From: Tenacibaculum lutimaris
GTDB lineage: Bacteria; Bacteroidota; Bacteroidia; Flavobacteriales; Flavobacteriaceae
Reading direction: 5' to 3'
Assembly (NCBI RefSeq): GCF_003610735.1
Contig: NZ_RAQM01000006.1
Span: 394,274 to 458,273, forward strand
Length of the DNA stretch: 64,000 nucleotides
Position numbers and translations under genes: made by a program. Each line of letters begins with the position of its first letter. Within the stretch, counting starts at the first letter, position 1. Below the pieces are notes generated by a model, which had not been told where the DNA came from, searched no databases, and worked only from the letters and a program-made list of their open reading frames with translations. Shown here in pieces: positions 36,556-56,079 of the stretch.

Positions 36556-37605
36556 CTAAACATCGTCAAAATCTACCACAATCTTCTGAGTTGTCGGATG
36601 TGCTTGACAAGTAAGAATTAATCCTTCTTCTAATTCTTCGTCTGTTAAAATTGAGTTTTTCGCCATTACCGCTTCTCCTTCGGTAACTTTAGCAATACAA
36701 CTGCTACAAACTCCTCCTTGACAAGAATAAGGAGCGTCTAATTTATGATGCAAAGAGGCTGCTAAAACCGTATCTGTTTTCTCCATCATAAAAGTATGCT
36801 CTTCATCATCTAATAGTACAGTGATTTCAGATTTTCCATCAGGAATATTTAATGCCGCTTCCTCATCTGAAACACTTGCAGTAAACAATTCAAAATTGAT
36901 ATTTCTTTCATCAAACCCATCTTCTTGAAGTGTAGTAGAAACTGTTTGAATCATTTCTTCTGGCCCACATAAGTACACCGAATCAAAAGAAATATCTTTA
37001 TGAACATTCTTTACAAAGTAATTTACAAGTCCTTTGTCAATTCTACCAAACTTAGTATTAGTTTTAACCTCTTGGCTAAATACATAGTGCAAATTTAATT
37101 GAGAAGGATGCTTTTCAGCCAACTCATTTAATTCATCGTAAAAAATAGTACTCTCAGCTTTCTTGTTTCCAAAAACCAAGGTAATTGTTGAAGTTGGTTC
37201 ATTTTCTAACACAGCTTTTACCATTGATAAAACTGGTGTTATACCACTTCCTGCTGCAAATGCTAAATAGTTTTTTTGCGCTTGCGGTTCAATAATAAAC
37301 TTTCCTTCAGGTTCAGAAATTTCTAAAAAAGTATTCTCTTTTAATTTCGTAGTAGCATAGGTTGAAAATTTTCCATGATCAACAGCTTTTACCGCTACTT
37401 TTATTTGTTTACTGTTAGGTGAAGCACAAATAGAATAAGCTCTTCTTATCTCCTTATCATCTAAATTGGCTTTTATGGTAATATATTGTCCTGCAATAAA
37501 AGTGTAATTACTTGCTAACTCAGCAGGTACATCAAATAAGATAGAAACAGCATCTGTCGTTTCTTTTATTATTTTTTCAATACGTAGTTTGTGAAATGTA
37601 GACAT
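36556..37605 (-). CDS. Ferredoxin-type NAD(P)H reductase with C-terminal plant-type [2Fe-2S] domain (PaaE-like)
   Basis: 349 residues in three parts: an FAD domain with RAYSICASPN (55-64), an NAD(P) domain with AAGSGITPVLSMV and YLCGPEEMI, and a C-terminal [2Fe-2S] domain whose ligands are Cys295, Cys300, Cys303 and Cys333 (CQGGVCSSC and LTCQAHP). It passes electrons from NAD(P)H to an oxygenase or to another acceptor. PaaE of phenylacetyl-CoA epoxidase has this layout, but no other paa genes are near, so a general reductase role is equally possible. Divergent from padR. Confidence 0.9.
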   Translation of the reverse strand: MSTFHKLRIEKIIKETTDAVSILFDVPAELASNYTFIAGQYITIKANLDDKEIRRAYSICASPNSKQIKVAVKAVDHGKFSTYATTKLKENTFLEISEPEGKFIIEPQAQKNYLAFAAGSGITPVLSMVKAVLENEPTSTITLVFGNKKAESTIFYDELNELAEKHPSQLNLHYVFSQEVKTNTKFGRIDKGLVNYFVKNVHKDISFDSVYLCGPEEMIQTVSTTLQEDGFDERNINFELFTASVSDEEAALNIPDGKSEITVLLDDEEHTFMMEKTDTVLAASLHHKLDAPYSCQGGVCSSCIAKVTEGEAVMAKNSILTDEELEEGLILTCQAHPTTQKIVVDFDDV

Positions 37606-37676: not shown

Positions 37677-37738
37677 ATACCTAAGATTTTTATACATAAG
37701 AAAATTATGTATATTTGCATACCTAAGTTTCTTAGGTA
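37677..37738 (+). promoter_or_regulatory. padR promoter with repeated operator boxes
   Basis: A -7 element TATATTTG is at 37710-37717. The box ATACCTAAG occurs at 37677-37685 and 37719-37727 (42 bp apart), a one-mismatch copy ATACATAAG at 37692-37700, and an inverted CTTAGGTA at 37731-37738. The last two form a hairpin-like ACCTAAG-TTT-CTTAGGT just after the expected start of transcription. TATG-N8-CATA also brackets the -7 element. This is what autoregulation by a PadR repressor would need; binding itself is inferred. Confidence 0.6.
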
Positions 37739-37751
37739 AAATTTCGAACTT

Positions 37752-38090
37752 ATGGGAAATCAGAAATTATATAAAGGATCATTACAAACTATTATTTTGA
37801 AACTACTAGCTCAGAATGATAAAATGTACGGATATGAAATCACGCAAAAAGTAAAAGAACTTACCAAAGGTGAATTAAAAATCACAGAAGGGGCTTTGTA
37901 TCCTGCCCTACACAAACTTGAAGCTGAAGGCTTGTTAGACGTTGAAGTTGCTAAGGTTGGAAATCGTTTACGTAAATATTATAAGCTTACCGAAAACGGT
38001 ACAAAAGAAACTGCAAATCGTCTTTCAGAAATGCAAGAATTTTTGAATACCATGCAACAATTGGTAAACCCTAAGTTTAGTTTGGAGTAA
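37752..38090 (+). CDS. PadR-family transcriptional regulator
   Basis: 112 residues, the small PadR-s2 type. The winged helix-turn-helix is visible as LAQNDKMYGYEITQKVKELTKGELKITEGALYPALHKLEAEGLLDVEV, followed by a C-terminal dimerisation helix (TENGTKETANRLSEMQEFLNTMQQLV). It is the first gene of an operon with four membrane paralogues beginning 11 bases later, and probably represses its own promoter. PadR next to membrane proteins with HAAS domains is a recurrent arrangement in Firmicutes; this looks like a Bacteroidota counterpart. Confidence 0.93.
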   Translation: MGNQKLYKGSLQTIILKLLAQNDKMYGYEITQKVKELTKGELKITEGALYPALHKLEAEGLLDVEVAKVGNRLRKYYKLTENGTKETANRLSEMQEFLNTMQQLVNPKFSLE

Positions 38091-38101
38091 TTTTTTTAGC
38101 T

Positions 38102-38779
38102 ATGGAATTAACAAAAGAACAAATACAAGAAATTGACAACTATATCAATGCTTGTGGTATTAAATTTTATGATGTAAAAGCTGAATTAGTAGACCATTTT
38201 GCTTCAATTTTAGAAGAGCGCCTAGAAATAGAACCTAAATTAGATATTCATAAAACTATTATAGAAGAACATAAAAAATTTAGTGACCAAGGATTTAAAA
38301 AACTATTAAAAACAAAAACTGATACTGTTCACAAACGCTTTTATAAGCTGACTTTTTTACACTTAAAATCATTTTTTAAATTACCTAAACTCATAATAAC
38401 AATTGCTATTTTTTATCTACTTAAAGAATTAATGAACCTCTTTGAAAACAAAGAACATTTCTTCAATTTACTTAGTGGAATTGGTCTTTTAATTATAGCA
38501 CAATTGTTCATTCGTGTAACTACTAACATTGGAAGTAAAAAAGATAAATTTCTTGTTCTGAACAAGTCAGATATGTTTTTAAATCTTATAAATTCTCTTT
38601 TTATCATTTTTAACAGTAGTGTTACTTTCAGAAGTGATCAAAGTTTTACTGAAAACAATTATAATTTAATTCATTTAGGAATATTTGTTTTATTACTGCT
38701 TTTTTATTGGTCTGGTGAATATATCTTTTATCAAAATAAACAAACCATAAAAAAACAGTATCCTAACGTATTGGTATAA
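38102..38779 (+). CDS. PadR-operon membrane protein, paralogue 1 of 4
   Basis: 225 residues. The cytoplasmic N-terminal region (1-80) begins MELTKEQIQEID and carries YDVKAELVDHFA at 23-34, whose Glu28, Asp31 and His32 are shared by all four paralogues. Four hydrophobic segments follow between about 95 and 215 (KLIITIAIFYLLKEL, LLSGIGLLIIAQLFI, MFLNLINSLFIIF, LIHLGIFVLLLLFYWSG). The layout, a short helical signalling domain plus four helices behind PadR, resembles HAAS/DUF1700-type proteins, but I cannot confirm the family. No enzyme motif is seen. Confidence 0.75.
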   Translation: MELTKEQIQEIDNYINACGIKFYDVKAELVDHFASILEERLEIEPKLDIHKTIIEEHKKFSDQGFKKLLKTKTDTVHKRFYKLTFLHLKSFFKLPKLIITIAIFYLLKELMNLFENKEHFFNLLSGIGLLIIAQLFIRVTTNIGSKKDKFLVLNKSDMFLNLINSLFIIFNSSVTFRSDQSFTENNYNLIHLGIFVLLLLFYWSGEYIFYQNKQTIKKQYPNVLV

Positions 38780-38782
38780 GCT

Positions 38783-39445
38783 ATGGAATTAACAAAAGAA
38801 CAAATACAAAAAATAGATCTCTTTTTAGAAGGAATAGGAATTGAATATATAGATATCCGATTTGAGATGGTAGATCATATTGCTACTGAAATTGAAAATA
38901 ACATTGAAGATATAAATGCTTTTTTTAAATATAATGGCTTTCAAACTCCTTTCATAAAATATATGCTTAGCAGAAAAAAGGAATACTTCGAAAGCTATAA
39001 AAAACAAAAAAGAAAAGCTTTTTGGTTTAACATAAAAAGAACACTTGTTGCTGTTTTTAAAGAATCTATAAAACCTATTAACTTTATAGCTATTTTACTC
39101 TTTTTATTTGCTATTAATCTCTTGGAAAACTTTAACCTAAAATACGCCAGCGAAATTGTCTTTGTTTCTTTTTTTCTTAGTTTCTTTTATTTTACGATAA
39201 GGTTTAATCAGTTTAAAAAGAAATTTGGTGCCATTAAAATTATTCATGCTTATGCATCCATTTTTATGTTCAACTACATTGTCTCTTTTCACTTTCCTGG
39301 AATTACCCCTATCTTTAGTGAAGGTAGTTATTCACCTTTTCTTCTATATAAATGCTTTACAGCTCTAATTATTAATTTTTTAGTCTTTAAGTGCTTTCTA
39401 AATGAAAAAACAAATATTCAAAAACGCCTTAAAAATTTAGCTTGA
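38783..39445 (+). CDS. PadR-operon membrane protein, paralogue 2 of 4
   Basis: 220 residues, three bases after paralogue 1. Same N-terminus (MELTKEQIQKID) and conserved IDIRFEMVDHIA at 23-34 with Glu28, Asp31, His32. About four membrane segments lie between 95 and 205 (PINFIAILLFLFAINLL, IVFVSFFLSFFYFTI, ASIFMFNYIVSF, CFTALIINFLVFKCFL). The loop before the first segment is strongly basic (SRKKEYFESYKKQKRKAF). The first bases of its reading frame are identical to those of paralogues 1 and 3, while the rest has diverged. Confidence 0.75.
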   Translation: MELTKEQIQKIDLFLEGIGIEYIDIRFEMVDHIATEIENNIEDINAFFKYNGFQTPFIKYMLSRKKEYFESYKKQKRKAFWFNIKRTLVAVFKESIKPINFIAILLFLFAINLLENFNLKYASEIVFVSFFLSFFYFTIRFNQFKKKFGAIKIIHAYASIFMFNYIVSFHFPGITPIFSEGSYSPFLLYKCFTALIINFLVFKCFLNEKTNIQKRLKNLA

Positions 39446-39450
39446 TTACT

Positions 39451-40107
39451 ATGGAATTAACAAAAGAACAAATACAGTATATCGAAAATCGATTAATTAA
39501 AGACGGTGTAAAATACTGGGATATCCGTATTGAAATGTTAGACCATATTGTTTCTGATATAGAAAGAAATGCTAATACAAAAAACTTTGATTCTGAGCTT
39601 CAAAGAGCATTAAAAAATGCTAATTGGGACAAAAGTCTGGTTGATATTAATCAGGAAGCATTAAAAAATATAAATAGAAAATATAGAACTCAATTTCATA
39701 AAGAAATTTTGCTCCTTTTAAAGAATGCCAAGTATATATTCTTTTTAATCACTTTTTGTTTTAACCATTATTTATTATCTAAAAATTTAAATTTCAAAAC
39801 TTTTGATAGGATTAATATTATTCTTTTTCTTTTCCCTATCATTTTTTATTTAGTTTTTGCTATAAAAGCATGGACTAAAAAATATGGTAAATCTGCAAAC
39901 TTACTTTATGGCATGTTTTATTTTTCATTTTCGTTTTTAATACTTCAAATGATTCCTCAATTTATGAGAGATACTTCATATGAAAATAAAATTTTAATGT
40001 GGTTAATTTTAATTCCAATTTATTACACAATGTCTTTTTCAGGGTATAGGTTATGTAAAAAAACCATAACAAAAATTGAAATAATGAAAAAAGAATTAGC
40101 GATATGA
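39451..40107 (+). CDS. PadR-operon membrane protein, paralogue 3 of 4
   Basis: 218 residues from the ATG at 39451, chosen because it matches the starts of paralogues 1 and 2; the frame could begin at 39442, which would overlap the previous stop. The signature is WDIRIEMLDHIV at 23-34 with Glu28, Asp31, His32. Four membrane segments follow (YIFFLITFCFNHYLL, INIILFLFPIIFYLVFAI, MFYFSFSFLILQMI, ILMWLILIPIYYTMSF), then a short basic tail. Its last four bases, ATGA, start the next paralogue. Confidence 0.75.
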   Translation: MELTKEQIQYIENRLIKDGVKYWDIRIEMLDHIVSDIERNANTKNFDSELQRALKNANWDKSLVDINQEALKNINRKYRTQFHKEILLLLKNAKYIFFLITFCFNHYLLSKNLNFKTFDRINIILFLFPIIFYLVFAIKAWTKKYGKSANLLYGMFYFSFSFLILQMIPQFMRDTSYENKILMWLILIPIYYTMSFSGYRLCKKTITKIEIMKKELAI

Positions 40108-40802
40108 AACTAACCGACCAACACATAGAACAATTGTACAAGTTTACACGTCAACATTTTGTTGAGCATTATGATGTACAAACCGAGTTAGTAGATCATC
40201 TAGCTAACGATATTGAACAAATTTGGGAGAAAAATCCAACGCTGACTTTCGAACAAGCCCGAGATACCTCATTTAAAAAATTTGGTGTGTTTGGTTTTAT
40301 GAATGTCGTTGAAGAAAAACAAAAACAAATGAATAAAAAGTACAGAAAAATTATTTGGAGCTACCTAAAACAATGGTTTACGCTACCTAAAATAATTTTA
40401 ACTGTAAGTTCTGTTTTTATCTTTTATTTTTTATTCCAAATACCACATTATGGAAAGTATTTCTTCTATAGTTTAGAAGTTTTCTTTTTCCTTTTTATAA
40501 TAATTAGATGTCAATTTTTAATCAAGCAACAAAAGCAGCGAGTAATAGAAACTAGTAAAAACTGGTTATTAGAAGATATCATTTTTAAAATGGCATCTTC
40601 TAACTTTATTGTCTTTTTTTGTAATGTGTATAATATTTTTCGATTAGCAGAACTGATGCATAGAAAAGAGTTCACACTTCTTATTTCTGTCTTTTCGGTT
40701 CTTTTAATATTAGTCTCTTACATCACTTTAGAGTTAATCCCTAAAAAGTCAGAAGAATTACTCGAAGCACAGTATCCTGAATATAAATTTGCTAACAATT
40801 AA
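40104..40802 (+). CDS. PadR-operon membrane protein, paralogue 4 of 4
   Basis: 232 residues, overlapping paralogue 3 by ATGA. It is the most divergent at the N-terminus (MKLTDQHIEQLYKF) but keeps YDVQTELVDHLA at 23-34 with Glu28, Asp31, His32, and adds NPTLTFEQARDTSFKKFGVFGF. Membrane segments: LPKIILTVSSVFIFYFLF, YFFYSLEVFFFLFIIIRC, SSNFIVFFCNVYNIF, LLISVFSVLLILVSYITLELI. The tail SEELLEAQYPEYKF resembles the end of related proteins I have seen in other flavobacteria. It may be the ancestral copy, since the other three share near-identical starts. Confidence 0.75.
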   Translation: MKLTDQHIEQLYKFTRQHFVEHYDVQTELVDHLANDIEQIWEKNPTLTFEQARDTSFKKFGVFGFMNVVEEKQKQMNKKYRKIIWSYLKQWFTLPKIILTVSSVFIFYFLFQIPHYGKYFFYSLEVFFFLFIIIRCQFLIKQQKQRVIETSKNWLLEDIIFKMASSNFIVFFCNVYNIFRLAELMHRKEFTLLISVFSVLLILVSYITLELIPKKSEELLEAQYPEYKFANN

Positions 40803-51560: not shown

Positions 51561-53795
51561 TTATGTTTTATTTAATTGTTCTATGATTTCTTTTGCTTTT
51601 TTACCTTCTTCGGTAGTTGCATAACTAACCGCAACAAATTCTAACGCTTTCTTGTAGGTTTCTTTATCTTGATATTTACCTATAGCTAGGGCTTTTAGGA
51701 GTGCGAATTTAGGAATTAAATTTGAATTCTGCAGTGTAGACGAAAAATTATCTATCTCATTAACAGCTTCTTCAAATTTATTCTCTTTATACAAATAGTA
51801 AACTTCTTTATACTTGTTTAAAATTTCATCTTCTTTTTTCTCCACTACTAACTTTACATCTGGATTTTTAATTATTTGAGCAAAAGTTGTTTCAGGATAC
51901 TTTTGTAAAATGGTGTTCTTATACTCATTAGATTTTACTAAATCTCCTTGTTCTTTATAAATTTGATATAAATGATAGCTTATAGGTAGCTCTAACTTGT
52001 CATCGGCACTTACTTCTCTTAAACGCTCTAGATTCTTAATAGCTAGTGTATGGTTTATAAACTGCTCTTTGTAAATCAACCCTAATTGATACAATGCATC
52101 ATTACGCTCCAAAACTAAATTTGTAATTGTTTGTTCATCGGTCGGAATAGCATCTATATAAGTAGAAAGTTGATATCTTGTATTTACTTTTGTTTCTTCT
52201 GTATTTGCTAATGTGTTGTCAATAGTGTTTATTGATTTATCTGATAACCTCCAATTATCCTCCAATGGACGTGTTCCCCATACTTTCTGAAACTCTCCTC
52301 TTCCAAAATTAAGAGCTTGTGTATTGTAGAAGTACCATTTTCCCTTATTTGCTGAACTATTTATTGAAGCACCTCCTCCAAAACTATTTCCAAAATTTTG
52401 TGCATTTAACAATTGTTGTTGTTTTTCTTCGTCTTCTTTTTTGATTTTTTCAATATAGCTTTCAAAAAAAGAAGTTCTTTCATCTGAAGTCATGGCTACT
52501 AATTGAAGAATACTATCGTTGTTCTTCACCGTTTCTTCATACTTTCTTAAGGCAGTAAGTCCTTTATTTTTTCTTCGAATTCTTCGAATTCTTTTTTCTT
52601 GATCAAATTCTTTAGAAACTACTTGCATTACACTATCGTAATATGAGCCTGCTAGTAGGTAATCTTCTTTTTCAAAAGCCATATCTGCCAAACGTTCGTA
52701 GGCATAAGTTTTTTGATAGTTATTATTATGCTTTGCTTGTAGTGATCTTTTATAGTATTCAGCTGCTTTTTCTTGATTATTTCTTCCTTCTTCTAAAACT
52801 CCTGCTTGATAATACAGTGCATTTAAAAACTTGCGATTGTCTGTGTTTTTTATAAGTTTTTTCATTCTTGCTAACACCACTATAGATGCTGAATCATTCG
52901 GAGTATTTTTAGCGTATTCTATTTCTGCTCTAATACGAAATCTATCTGGAGCTCTTCTACTTTCAGCTAATTTTTTAAATACCATTCGAGCAGAATCTTT
53001 TCTATCTAATTCACTATACACTTGCCCTAAAACAAACATATTTCTAGCCGTTTGCTCTTTGTTATAATTTGTAGTAGTTGCTAACTTTAAATAATCCACT
53101 ACTTTTTGAATTGTATCTGTTTGCTCATACGCCATTGCCATAGCTGTATAGGCTTGCTCTTTAGTAGATTTTCCTATCTTTTCCGTTTCGTCTAAAACGT
53201 CTAACAACAATCGTAACGTTTGTATCGCTCTTTTTTCATTACCTAAACGAATGTTTGCTTTAGCCCTCCAAATTCTGGTTTCGTAATTTAAATTTGCTTT
53301 AGGGTAATTTACTATAACGTAGTTAAACGCCTCTAACGCTGGAATAAATCGCTGTGTGTAGTATCTTGATTTTCCTAACAAAAGGTAAGCATCATCTATT
53401 TGACTGTTTTTTTCGTACCCATTAATATTCATAGAGTGGGTTTGAATTGCTTTTACAGCCTTTTCTTCTGCTTTTTCAAAAGGAGTAAGGTTTTTATTTT
53501 CTTCGTCTTCTTCACCTGCGTTAAATCCTGTACCTGGAGTTAGTACCTTAGCATCTATTGTACTCTCATCAAATGTGATGGGTTCAATTTGTAAACGTTT
53601 CCAAAAGTTATCTTCATGTTTTTCTTGAATTTCTTCAAGGCCTTTTAAATACGCCTGTTCGCCATTAAAAAGCACATTGTATTTGGTAGTAACAGCGTGA
53701 TAGCTTCTATTTAAAAAAGCATCCTTTTTAACACTACACGAATACACGATAGCTACTAAAACACTGAATACTATTATCTTGCCCCCTTTTTTCAT
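51561..53795 (-). CDS. sprE: Type IX secretion / gliding TPR lipoprotein SprE (PorW)
   Basis: 744 residues. The signal peptide ends at lipobox VYSC (Cys20). The mature N-terminus (KKDAFLNRSYHAVTTKYNVLFNGEQAYLKGLEE) is the signature of SprE/PorW proteins, which are needed for T9SS function and gliding motility. TPR repeats run throughout (ALEAFNYVIVNYPKANLNYETRIWRAKANIRLG; NQEKAAEYYKRSLQAK; YPETTFAQIIKNP). It probably bridges outer-membrane and periplasmic T9SS parts. It sits upstream of bactofilin and the ATP synthase genes; the 21-base gap to bactofilin suggests co-transcription. Confidence 0.88.
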   Translation of the reverse strand: MKKGGKIIVFSVLVAIVYSCSVKKDAFLNRSYHAVTTKYNVLFNGEQAYLKGLEEIQEKHEDNFWKRLQIEPITFDESTIDAKVLTPGTGFNAGEEDEENKNLTPFEKAEEKAVKAIQTHSMNINGYEKNSQIDDAYLLLGKSRYYTQRFIPALEAFNYVIVNYPKANLNYETRIWRAKANIRLGNEKRAIQTLRLLLDVLDETEKIGKSTKEQAYTAMAMAYEQTDTIQKVVDYLKLATTTNYNKEQTARNMFVLGQVYSELDRKDSARMVFKKLAESRRAPDRFRIRAEIEYAKNTPNDSASIVVLARMKKLIKNTDNRKFLNALYYQAGVLEEGRNNQEKAAEYYKRSLQAKHNNNYQKTYAYERLADMAFEKEDYLLAGSYYDSVMQVVSKEFDQEKRIRRIRRKNKGLTALRKYEETVKNNDSILQLVAMTSDERTSFFESYIEKIKKEDEEKQQQLLNAQNFGNSFGGGASINSSANKGKWYFYNTQALNFGRGEFQKVWGTRPLEDNWRLSDKSINTIDNTLANTEETKVNTRYQLSTYIDAIPTDEQTITNLVLERNDALYQLGLIYKEQFINHTLAIKNLERLREVSADDKLELPISYHLYQIYKEQGDLVKSNEYKNTILQKYPETTFAQIIKNPDVKLVVEKKEDEILNKYKEVYYLYKENKFEEAVNEIDNFSSTLQNSNLIPKFALLKALAIGKYQDKETYKKALEFVAVSYATTEEGKKAKEIIEQLNKT

Positions 53796-53889
53796 AAAAT
53801 AAAGCTTTTACTGTACAACAACGTTATAATTGTCTTTTTTGTACGTAAAAAGGTAAAAATAATAATTATAAGGTGATTTTAACCCTATT

Positions 53890-54585
53890 TTAAATAGAAA
53901 AATAGCTTTCTAACTCTTGTAATGTTTCTTGTGATGTGTGAATGTCTTTTACTAGGTTTCCTTTATCTAAAACCACTATACGCTCGCAAACTTCGGTAAC
54001 ATGACTTAAATCGTGACTAGAAATTAACACGGTTACCTCGTTATTTTCAGTCAATTTTTTAATTAGTTTTTTTAATCTGATTTGCGTAGTTGGATCTAAG
54101 TTTGCAAAAGGTTCATCTAAAATTACTACTTGCGGATTCCCCATCATTGCAGCAACAATACCTACCTTTTTCTGATTTCCTTTGCTTAGACTTCGTAAAT
54201 ACTTTTTCTTTCCTAAGATTTCACCATTAAAAAATTCTTCAAACTCAGTTAAGAAGTCTTGAATATCAGCTTTGTTCATTCCGCGTAAATCTCCTACAAA
54301 ATCAAAATATTCCTCAGGTGTTAAGTAACCTATTAAAAAAGACTCATCAATAAATGATCCTGTAAAAGTTTTCCAATCTTCACTTTTATTCACTACTACT
54401 TCATTATTCACAATTTCTCCAGTAGTAGGTCGAATTAAGTCTAACAACAAATTAAATAAAGTAGTTTTTCCTGCTCCGTTATTTCCTACCAATCCGAAAG
54501 ATTGTCCGCTAGGGATTTCTATACTTTCAAGGTTTAAAACTTGTGCTGTTCCGTAGGTTTTTGAAATATTTTGTATTGAAATCAT
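53890..54585 (-). CDS. ABC transporter ATP-binding protein
   Basis: 231 residues. Walker A GNNGAGKTT (about 34-42), Q-loop region TGSFIDESFLIGYLTPEEY, signature LSKGNQKKVG, Walker B VVILDEPFANLD, and switch His in LISSHDLSHV. Belongs to the exporter-type class related to CcmA/NatA. Twenty-one bases downstream of its permease gene (minus-strand order permease, then ATPase), so the pair forms one transporter. Substrate unknown. Confidence 0.94.
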   Translation of the reverse strand: MISIQNISKTYGTAQVLNLESIEIPSGQSFGLVGNNGAGKTTLFNLLLDLIRPTTGEIVNNEVVVNKSEDWKTFTGSFIDESFLIGYLTPEEYFDFVGDLRGMNKADIQDFLTEFEEFFNGEILGKKKYLRSLSKGNQKKVGIVAAMMGNPQVVILDEPFANLDPTTQIRLKKLIKKLTENNEVTVLISSHDLSHVTEVCERIVVLDKGNLVKDIHTSQETLQELESYFSI

Positions 54586-54606
54586 TTTTAATTCTTTTAA
54601 GGTTGG

Positions 54607-56079
54607 TTATGATTTTTGGCTGAATGCGTGTATTGCAGCATATTTGTTTTTAATGTATCTCTTTTCTATTCTATTCATAAAGTAATTTTTGAACACTAAA
54701 GCGATTGCTCCTGTTATAGCGATTGCTAAAACACCTGAATTGAACCCTACAAACTTGTTAAAAATCCAAAATAAGAACATTGGAACCCCCATAATAGGAA
54801 TGATAATTAAAAACTGTGTTGCACTAGTTCCTTGATAGTTTGAAAATCCGCTTTTATTTAAGTCGATTCGTTTTTTATTGAATGCACCGGCAAATAGTAA
54901 AAACAAAGAATTGAACCCGATGTTAAAAATAGCTCCAGCAGTAATCATCAAAAAGATATCTAATCCATAAAAATATAAATATGGAATGCTTAAAAGGTAT
55001 AACCCTGCCGATACTACAACCATTAAGTACCATTTACTTTCTAAAAACTTTCGATAACGAATATTTTGACTCATAAGCATCTTGTAATATTCACTATCCC
55101 AAGCAGGAATAAATTGACCATAATTAAGTGTAAATCCCCCAGTAATAAATATTGCTGCGAAGACTAAAAAAGCAGGCATTTTTTCTCGATACATCTCTTG
55201 TCCGAAGAAGATTGCTCCATAAAAAAGAAATAAAAACGACATAAAAAATACTGTTTTAGTACGTTTGTTTCTCCAAATTTGTCGGATGTCATTTTTTATA
55301 AACGGCGCTACATCTCCTAAACTATCAATAAAAGATAAATCAGTAGTACTAGCTACTTCTTCTTTACTTTTAATAACATCATCTAAATATACTTTACTTC
55401 GTAAAAGTTTAAAGTTCAAATAATACAATCCTGTAAGCAAAAGCACTCCTAAAAGAGCTAATATTGGGTTGCTATATACTGATTGAAAAACAGGTGCAAA
55501 AAACTCAGTAATATTGAAAATTTCGTATTTGTTTACCAAAAACAACAGCGCTAAAACAGCAACCATTATTCCTAATGCATAGTTGTTTTTATTGATTAAG
55601 AAATTGAGATAGTTTGCACTTAACACTAATGTAATCATTAAAAACAACCAACCTATAACCCCTATAGTATTGTAACCTTGTCCTATTAGTACTATTGAAA
55701 AAGGAATATAGAAAAATAACGGCATGAAGTTGAAAAACGAAAATGCTGACTTTCCTAACACGAAATGCACTAACTTTTCCTTTCTTATAGGTAATCCAAG
55801 AAATGGTTTAATATTCAACACAGGAAGTTTTTGCATTAAATAGCGGAAAATTAAATCAGCAACTAACAAGAAAATGATAATTCCATTTACAAAAAACAAA
55901 GGGTCAGTATTTGGGTATTCTTTTTTAATAAAAAAATAACCTCCTAAACCTATCATTAAAAAAGAAGCTAACATATATAAGGCAAAAAAGCCCATGATAA
56001 TTTTTAGCGCAATACTTTTCCCAAAATAAGAGGAGCGAAAAAATTGTTTCCACTCAAGTTTAAAAAAATGTGCAATCAT
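54607..56079 (-). CDS. DUF5687 family ABC-type permease
   Basis: 490 residues with about 12 membrane segments. The start MIAHFFKLEWKQFFRSSYFGKSIALK and MQKLPVLNIKPFLGLPIRKEKLVHFVLGK are features of the Bacteroidota DUF5687 proteins, which pair with ABC ATPases. A cytoplasmic loop lies around 230-265 (SKEEVASTTDLSFIDSLGDVAPFIKNDIRQIWRNKRTKTVF), and the C-terminus is basic. Partner of the ATPase downstream. Substrate unknown. Confidence 0.85.
   Translation of the reverse strand: MIAHFFKLEWKQFFRSSYFGKSIALKIIMGFFALYMLASFLMIGLGGYFFIKKEYPNTDPLFFVNGIIIFLLVADLIFRYLMQKLPVLNIKPFLGLPIRKEKLVHFVLGKSAFSFFNFMPLFFYIPFSIVLIGQGYNTIGVIGWLFLMITLVLSANYLNFLINKNNYALGIMVAVLALLFLVNKYEIFNITEFFAPVFQSVYSNPILALLGVLLLTGLYYLNFKLLRSKVYLDDVIKSKEEVASTTDLSFIDSLGDVAPFIKNDIRQIWRNKRTKTVFFMSFLFLFYGAIFFGQEMYREKMPAFLVFAAIFITGGFTLNYGQFIPAWDSEYYKMLMSQNIRYRKFLESKWYLMVVVSAGLYLLSIPYLYFYGLDIFLMITAGAIFNIGFNSLFLLFAGAFNKKRIDLNKSGFSNYQGTSATQFLIIIPIMGVPMFLFWIFNKFVGFNSGVLAIAITGAIALVFKNYFMNRIEKRYIKNKYAAIHAFSQKS

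Follow-up and report, generated by a model that had tools for sequence, protein, structure and literature searches.

HAAS-PadR pairs, as described in PMC11237479, are a proposed relay of membrane signals in which the HAAS domain carries a GxP motif at the kink of helix 3, and PMC12419801 repeats this model. In Listeria, according to PMC6624303, the PadR regulators LltR and LstR repress their own operons and mainly regulate those, and in mutants the expression of target genes goes up about 150-fold. The effector there is Lmo0600, a DUF1700 membrane protein that causes the phenotype when overproduced, and the study assumes envelope-acting compounds to be the signals for these PadRs. Here we analyse an operon of Tenacibaculum lutimaris in which padR is followed by four paralogous genes, E1 to E4, for membrane proteins (E-proteins) with an N-terminal E-x-x-D-H domain (E-domain). 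It lies within a 64,000-nucleotide stretch of DNA, called the window, that spans positions 394274-458273 of contig 1 in a genome of 2.87 Mb with two PadR genes. The layout resembles HAAS-PadR pairs (PF22564; HAAS_TM/DUF1700, PF08006) in that a helical N-terminal domain precedes a multi-spanning or other envelope module beside a standalone PadR. It also resembles the LltR-Lmo0600-Lmo0601 locus, where (PMC6624303) an autoregulated padR is followed by a gene for a multi-spanning DUF1700 membrane protein; that system differs in belonging to a Firmicute, in the family of its N-terminal domain, and in having one membrane paralogue followed by a DUF4097 protein. On balance, the T. lutimaris operon appears to be a self-regulated membrane-to-gene relay, in which PadR would repress the operon and the E-proteins would bind and release PadR as membrane anchors or sensors.

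The padR operon and its candidate operator

The features of the locus are as follows.

37677-37739, plus strand: candidate operator cluster, three copies or variants of ATACmTAAG...TTATGTAT at 37677-37697, 37692-37712 and 37719-37739
37692-37712, plus strand: main candidate operator ATACATAAGAAAATTATGTAT, an inverted repeat and the sole perfect match to the pattern in the genome
37710-37717, plus strand: TATATTTG, which fits the Bacteroidota -7 element TAnnTTTG and shares 3 bases with the main operator
37752-38090, plus strand: padR, 112-residue winged-helix regulator of the PadR family (PF03551)
38102-38779, plus strand: E1, 225 residues, E-x-x-D-H N-terminal domain and four transmembrane segments, 11 bases after padR
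38783-39445, plus strand: E2, 220 residues, same architecture, 3 bases after E1
39451-40107, plus strand: E3, 218 residues, same architecture, 5 bases after E2
40104-40802, plus strand: E4, 232 residues, same architecture, overlapping E3 at ATGA (spacing of -4)

Re-reading of the coordinates bore out the open reading frames, sizes and spacings that a previous sequence-only reading of this locus had given; the start of E3 was taken as the ATG at 39451, where the mechanical list of open reading frames has a TTG at 39442. The window PadR belongs to Pfam family PF03551, with 76 bits against a cut-off of 27 over residues 15-88. Its best NCBIfam match, TIGR03433, which we take to be the model of ADOP-linked PadRs, scored 76.9 bits, below the cut-off of 101.8. 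No convincing terminator was found 3' of E4, and a scan for sigma-70 promoters was uninformative (16 found, against 19.2 in shuffles).

The three operator copies depart from the pattern by 3, 0 and 3 mismatches, in order, and the main one is formed by 9-bp arms, TATACATAA and TTATGTATA, around 5 bases (37691-37713). The overlapping TAnnTTTG element is presumably the -7 promoter consensus of Bacteroidota. With at most 2 mismatches, the 21-bp operator stands within 170 nucleotides upstream of 54 of 63 E-type padR genes in a first set and 42 of 58 in a second (58 of 60 loci, L183 having no padR and L210 too little upstream DNA). Random control stretches, drawn from these loci in their entirety and hence with the operator included, matched in 49 of 3150 and 64 of 2900 cases. 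At the same threshold it was found ahead of none of 11 padR genes linked to HAAS and none of 10 linked to permease prefix domain 1 (NF038403), the N-terminal domain of ADOP-type MacB/FtsX permeases (0/21 together). Matches with up to 3 mismatches number 17 and 16 in the T. lutimaris genome, as compared to 16 and 18 for the reversed pattern; since there is one perfect site and the rest are at the control level, the PadR regulon is probably this operon alone. That PadR controls this operon is very likely. The DNA part of the proposed relay, the operator, is well supported; PadR binding and a signal are inferred.

Linkage to padR and the grouping of PadRs

A profile search of the class found the E-domain at E<=1e-4 in 106 of 395 Bacteroidia genomes and 68 of 196 genera, and in a phylum-wide search with the whole protein the matches outside Bacteroidia start at model position 55 or later, i.e., in the membrane part. 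The association of padR with E-x-x-D-H genes, which the sequence-only reading had left to a neighbourhood survey, proved to be near-universal: padR adjoins the E-domain gene or heads its run in 121 of 125 Bacteroidia loci, summed over three sets that may overlap in species. The first set comprises 40 named Flavobacteriaceae loci retrieved with E4 as the query, and padR heads the run in 39 of them (38 on the DNA first fetched). Reading on from L035 into L152, in a Flavobacterium metagenome-assembled genome, brought to light padR followed by ten tandem E genes, and the locus counted as a miss, L031, starts within an E gene at a contig end, in a genome where a separate contig holds padR and two E genes. 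For the second set, 247 genomes of the phylum were searched by profile and 29 stretches were taken, 25 of them with the E-domain; those left out were L111-L113, matched in the membrane part only, and L114, the second padR of the T. lutimaris genome itself. In this set padR is adjacent in 24 of 25 stretches, with the gene order reversed (E, then padR) in L095 and L096. The third set, 60 loci from 58 of the 106 matching genomes, was picked mostly down the list of the 395-genome search, passing over those fetched before and many with weaker matches; its architecture counts are therefore not frequencies. Here padR lies on the same strand within 200 nucleotides in 58 of 60 loci; L183 ends at a contig end, and in L214 padR is 1344 nucleotides away behind another gene.

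A tree of 84 PadRs, a quick one built on 113 columns and with several long branches, separates the regulators by partner into a HAAS-linked cluster of 11 (support 97), a prefix-1-linked cluster of 10 (support 78) and an E-linked cluster of 63 (support 94). Four partner labels are placed on it by 3 changes, which is the minimum, whereas shuffled labels required 23 on average and in none of 200 shuffles as few. In these sequences, then, PadRs group by partner domain.

If padR stood beside unrelated membrane proteins by neighbourhood chance and the common motif were due to convergence, one would expect the membrane parts to have little sequence in common, and those of the window paralogues are indeed only 12-20% identical in pairwise comparisons. 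The linkage in 121 of 125 loci, the widespread operator and the profile homology described below contradict this explanation, which retains next to no probability.

The E-x-x-D-H domain, its relatives and its fusions

The helical N-terminal domain followed by about four membrane helices, as supposed in the sequence-only reading, was recovered both in the hydrophobicity of the four window proteins, each of which has four hydrophobic segments corresponding to four predicted membrane helices, and in an AlphaFold2 model of E4 built from 79 sequences (predicted local distance difference test, pLDDT, 92.8; predicted template-modelling score, pTM, 0.82). The model features a three-helix N-terminal domain, with helices at residues 5-17, 23-43 and 49-59, a long helix at 64-91 and then four membrane helices; the N-terminal domain modelled alone gave pLDDT 79 and pTM 0.62. 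Glu28, Asp31 and His32 do occupy the same positions throughout, as had been claimed: D24, E28, D31, H32 and E38 are invariant in the alignment of E1-E4, and all of these but D24 (at least 90%) are invariant in the 79-member family alignment. Among 126 N-terminal domains, D31 is present in 125, H32 in 124 and E38 in 118, and position 28 holds a glutamate or an aspartate in 110. Paralogy of the window proteins is above chance in phmmer comparisons among 643 open reading frames (E1-E4, 2.8e-18; E2-E3, 8.4e-8; E1-E2, 4e-6), and E3 and E4, between which there was no direct match at E<=0.01, are joined via the profile. The same genome holds four E-domain matches by profile search, all of them E1-E4.

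Identity over the 30 E4-type rows of the alignment is 63% in the N-terminal domain and 25% in the membrane part, and the other 49 rows show 36% and 14%, respectively. The analogy with PadR signalling partners drawn in the sequence-only reading thus stands as far as the arrangement and the conserved N-terminal domain are concerned. Because the N-terminal domain is conserved and the membrane part is not, the constant part would be cytoplasmic and the membrane part free to change, a predicted topology that would place the E-proteins in the inner membrane.

The nearest relative found for the E-domain is permease prefix domain 1. The homologous stretch covers some 67 columns, in which E28 and H32 of the E-domain align with two invariant residues of the prefix domain, likewise E28 and H32. 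The first sign was a weak match of the L101 E-protein (E 4.8e-4, 19.9 of 30 bits), the protein that stands first in alignment A4. Comparison by hhalign of a prefix-1 alignment, built from 15 of 16 above-cut-off Bacteroidota loci (L129, with an unclear start, was dropped), gave E 3.8e-7 and probability 92.9 with 29 E-domains, and E 7.7e-9, probability 95.8 and score 42.2 with 126 N-terminal domains, these being single-pair E-values; profile-profile comparison with 79 full E-proteins gave E 6.2e-5. Against 200 column shuffles the scores were 37.9 versus a maximum of 18.9 in an earlier run and 42.2 versus 16.2 with the 126 domains. The two domains are alike in standing N-terminal to membrane parts, the E-domain holding the place of the prefix domain in the ADOP-like permeases of L105, L106 and L226, and a padR-like open reading frame, detected by a crude motif, lies within the 3-kb stretch of 10 of the 16 above-cut-off prefix-1 loci. 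They differ in that the E-domain falls short of the 30-bit cut-off of NF038403 (22.3 bits at most, in L101; weak matches in 6 of 29 members; none for E1-E4 at E<=1), has D at position 31 and has its own PadR group and its own operator. The window proteins, of 218-232 residues with four transmembrane segments, contain no permease, and permease fusions are confined to the relatives L105, L106 and L226. This is the sole significant family relation found, and it leads to another padR-associated domain; neither an unrelated known family nor a loss of padR linkage in related genomes turned up.

E1-E4 reached no curated Pfam or NCBIfam cut-off, and their best PHROGs matches (E 0.018 for E1, 0.032 for E4) were not counted. 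PDB sequence searches with alignments A2, A3 and A5 gave no meaningful match, and a VIA search with the E4 model returned helical bundles that mostly cover the membrane part. Sporadic matches to the STING transmembrane domain PF23417 (12 of 79 members, best 5.4e-4; E4 scored 12.9 bits where the cut-off is 28.1), to DUF2207_C (5 members, best 1.3e-5) and to DUF373 and similar families were taken as hydrophobic chance. No description of the E-domain was found in the literature searched, most subscription papers lying outside that search.

E-domains head four kinds of protein, namely those with four transmembrane segments, long GldL/GldM-like proteins, MacB/FtsX permeases and M23 peptidases. In the long proteins (at least 370 residues; 41 proteins of set 3 loci and that of L104), GldL_N was matched in 39 and GldM_1st in 27 of the 42 at E<=0.001. 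Many E-domain relatives thus share these domains with GldL/GldM (PorL/PorM) of type IX secretion; they differ in holding both in one chain with the PadR-linked N-terminal domain. Such a single chain occurs in L104 and in many of L167-L221 (e.g., L167:1211-2506). The window E-proteins have no GldL or GldM match at E<=1. Of 42 proteins in a slightly different long-protein set, 24 have two or more copies of a KxxH[WMLF]P motif, exemplified by FKxMHWPGA. Beside padR, the E-domain also heads duplicated MacB_PCD/FtsX permeases in L105 (5802-8498), L106 and L226, and is fused to a LytM-type Peptidase_M23 in L189:2340-3101 and L209:2417-3127. The ADOP permease model TIGR03434 (cut-off 622.3) scored 306.8 bits with L105 and 299.9 with L106, below its cut-off, and had no match among the window proteins. 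We found no paper naming both PadR and GldL, again with most subscription literature outside the search, and the PadR-linked GldL/GldM-like fusions may for this reason be undescribed.

The number of E genes per run ranges from 1 to 10 over the 41 loci of set 1 and the window and is mostly two or three (one in 2 loci, two in 15, three in 17, four in 3, five in 3 and ten in 1); elsewhere, the run of L098 includes one E gene of another type. In a quick tree of E-proteins, whose deepest forks have a support of 24, the 41 last-in-run genes all fall in one branch of 48 rows. At each of the 41 loci the run ends with a gene of the E4 lineage; 40 of them were fetched with E4 as bait, so that this position is partly the product of selection. 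E4 itself is 96% identical to its counterpart in Tenacibaculum sp. L6 (L003). Of the window proteins, E1 and E3 cluster with sequences from Polaribacter, whereas E2 clusters with those of other Tenacibaculum; the lineages of E1, E3 and E4 occur in other genera too, that of E2 in other Tenacibaculum. The run is therefore an old, reshuffled set, and the sequence-only proposal that it was amplified in place is half right, as the paralogues are old lineages and do not stem from a recent event. Gene conversion was considered for the common first 26 nucleotides of E1-E3 and rejected: identity in codons 1-9 was 0.75 within and 0.71 between loci, and codon identity at shared residues in codons 10-40 was 0.63 and 0.60, the similarity of these values indicating that the common start is not special.

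The tight, partly overlapping spacing of the genes and the keeping together of different old lineages would also suit unequal subunits of one membrane hetero-oligomer, with PadR merely autoregulating its dose. The copy number of 1 to 10 and the coming and going of lineages between loci are unlike fixed subunits, and we regard this explanation as improbable. Whether the paralogues would instead be parallel sensors is finely balanced, and we put this forward only tentatively.

A possible membrane-to-gene relay

In the proposed relay, PadR would bind the inverted repeat over the promoter and shut off its own operon, and the E-proteins would lie in the inner membrane with the predicted three-helix domain in the cytoplasm. 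The E-domain would be a PadR-partner adaptor of the permease-prefix-1/HAAS kind and rather probably contacts PadR, holding or freeing it in response to the sensing or activity of the membrane part joined to it. The sequence-only reading saw in the conserved acid/His patch a candidate interaction or ligand site. The window form would carry a fast-changing four-helix membrane bundle in four old versions, and these suggest that a single PadR takes input from, or has its action buffered by, several envelope-state sensors. The presence of the same adaptor on GldL/GldM-like proteins, MacB/FtsX permeases and M23 peptidases suggests that the relay would serve envelope machines generally.

Several results weigh against this account. 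The E-like protein of L100 (L100:3882-4610, 242 residues) has a degenerate E-x-x-D-H motif and no padR on 8.5 kb, and is possibly a relic or a freed paralogue. The operator is absent (at least 5 mismatches) upstream of padR in L041, L095, L096, L107, L177 and L201; L095 and L096, the two loci of reversed gene order, have a 3-mismatch copy in front of their E gene. Nor is the operator wholly private, as among prefix-1-linked padR genes it occurs at 3 mismatches in 1 of 10 and at 4 or fewer in 4 of 10, as if theirs were a cousin of the E-type operator, and 1 of 11 HAAS-linked genes has it at 4. Foldseek found no match at E<=0.001 in the PDB for the E4 model and none at that threshold for the N-terminal domain model, for which the best VIA hit (2apl, Z 6.9) is at noise level for helical bundles; the absence of the HAAS-related PDB entry of PMC11237479 from the matches listed speaks neither for nor against kinship. 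Direct profile comparison of the E-domain with 11 HAAS domains was not significant, 14 of 200 and 17 of 200 shuffles equalling it with a thin alignment (11 of 12 matches, all from Bacteroidota; L055 dropped, L053 and L054 just under the cut-off). Finally, the GxP motif, which 10 of 11 HAAS domains carry, is present in 2 of 79 E-proteins and in none of 29 N-terminal domains; in the E4 group F60, G61, F63, G64 and F65 are conserved where it would stand.

The last two results bear on the proposal of the sequence-only reading that the locus is the Bacteroidota counterpart of HAAS-PadR. E-proteins do have two HAAS traits, the predicted three-helix domain N-terminal to a membrane part and the standalone PadR neighbour. 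E1-E4, however, have no match to PF22564 at E<=1, HAAS is not among the 25 families shown for the 79 members, and DUF1129, the other family suggested for the N-terminal domain, gave matches in 3 of 79 (best 0.019) that were not counted. The only PF22564 match of the genome moreover lies elsewhere, in a genuine HAAS-PadR pair where the second padR of the genome (G000:C4:414720-415269 onward) is followed by a HAAS protein (L002, L044, L114). For this reason, and because the profile comparison does not rise above shuffles, the proposal that the E-proteins are the Bacteroidota counterpart of HAAS is not supported. We take the remainder of that HAAS protein to be PspC-like and a small upstream membrane protein to be DUF4870-like. 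HAAS_TM gave 1 weak match among 148 Bacteroidota genomes. Prefix domain 1 itself compares weakly with HAAS (probability 21, P 0.001), with a score of 19.7 above the shuffle maximum of 16.5 (0 of 200), and 2 of 15 prefix-1 domains match PF22564 (best E 0.0053). As the step from prefix-1 to HAAS is above shuffles and that from the E-domain to HAAS is not, the comparisons suggest a kinship of the E-domain to HAAS by way of prefix-1, and none closer than that one step.

It is also conceivable, though unlikely in our view, that the E-proteins are nothing but the regulated output, membrane effectors (partners of an export or envelope-repair machine, for instance) switched on when PadR binds a small molecule, with the N-terminal domain serving assembly. 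In favour of this, Lmo0600 of Listeria is the effector behind the overproduction phenotype, and envelope-acting compounds are the assumed PadR signals (PMC6624303). The E-domain-bearing permeases, peptidases and GldL/M-like proteins are plausible effectors as well. Moreover, of 66 loci, 43 have a gene for a permease homologous to a DUF5687 protein no more than 500 nucleotides past an E gene and in the same orientation, and these groups of loci usually include an ABC ATPase as well. This explanation does not predict a padR-tied domain that is constant across unrelated effectors, nor a PadR tree that tracks the type of partner domain. In the window the corresponding genes are as follows.

54607-56079, minus strand: DUF5687 permease, 13-15 kb beyond E4
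53890-54585, minus strand: ABC ATPase, beside the DUF5687 permease

At up to 3 mismatches the operator pattern has no match in the 115-nucleotide gap ahead of this permease gene; for this reason, and given the distance of 13-15 kb, the pair was not counted as part of the system. The stretch 51561-56079 (minus strand) encodes the permease, the ATPase and a TPR protein. A ferredoxin-reductase-like gene lies at 36556-37605 on the minus strand, with homologues in 18 labelled groups of loci. The part of PMC9950754 available to us, on two tandem colony-spreading genes, does not mention PadR.

Returning to the relay, the E-domain may be an unnamed, Bacteroidia-wide PadR-partner adaptor that couples diverse envelope machines, proton-motor-like proteins of the GldL/GldM type among them, to one conserved operator and one PadR clade, a generalisation we consider speculative. 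That such an envelope-state-to-gene relay stands parallel to HAAS and two-component systems is, in that reading, similarly doubtful. Bacteroidia figure prominently among the bacteria of the gut and the sea, and little is known of how envelope information reaches their genes by routes other than two-component systems and anti-sigma factors. With the E-domain beside the same switch across the class and on many envelope parts, the family has the look of widespread, unstudied envelope-to-gene reporting. The candidate operator, the separate regulator group and the single conserved adaptor domain make the wiring of the module directly testable. If the general relay were true, the GldL/M-bearing forms would report proton-motive force or motor or secretion load to transcription. 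The PadR-linked GldL/GldM-like fusions would offer an entry point for studying regulation in the neighbourhood of the type IX motor family.

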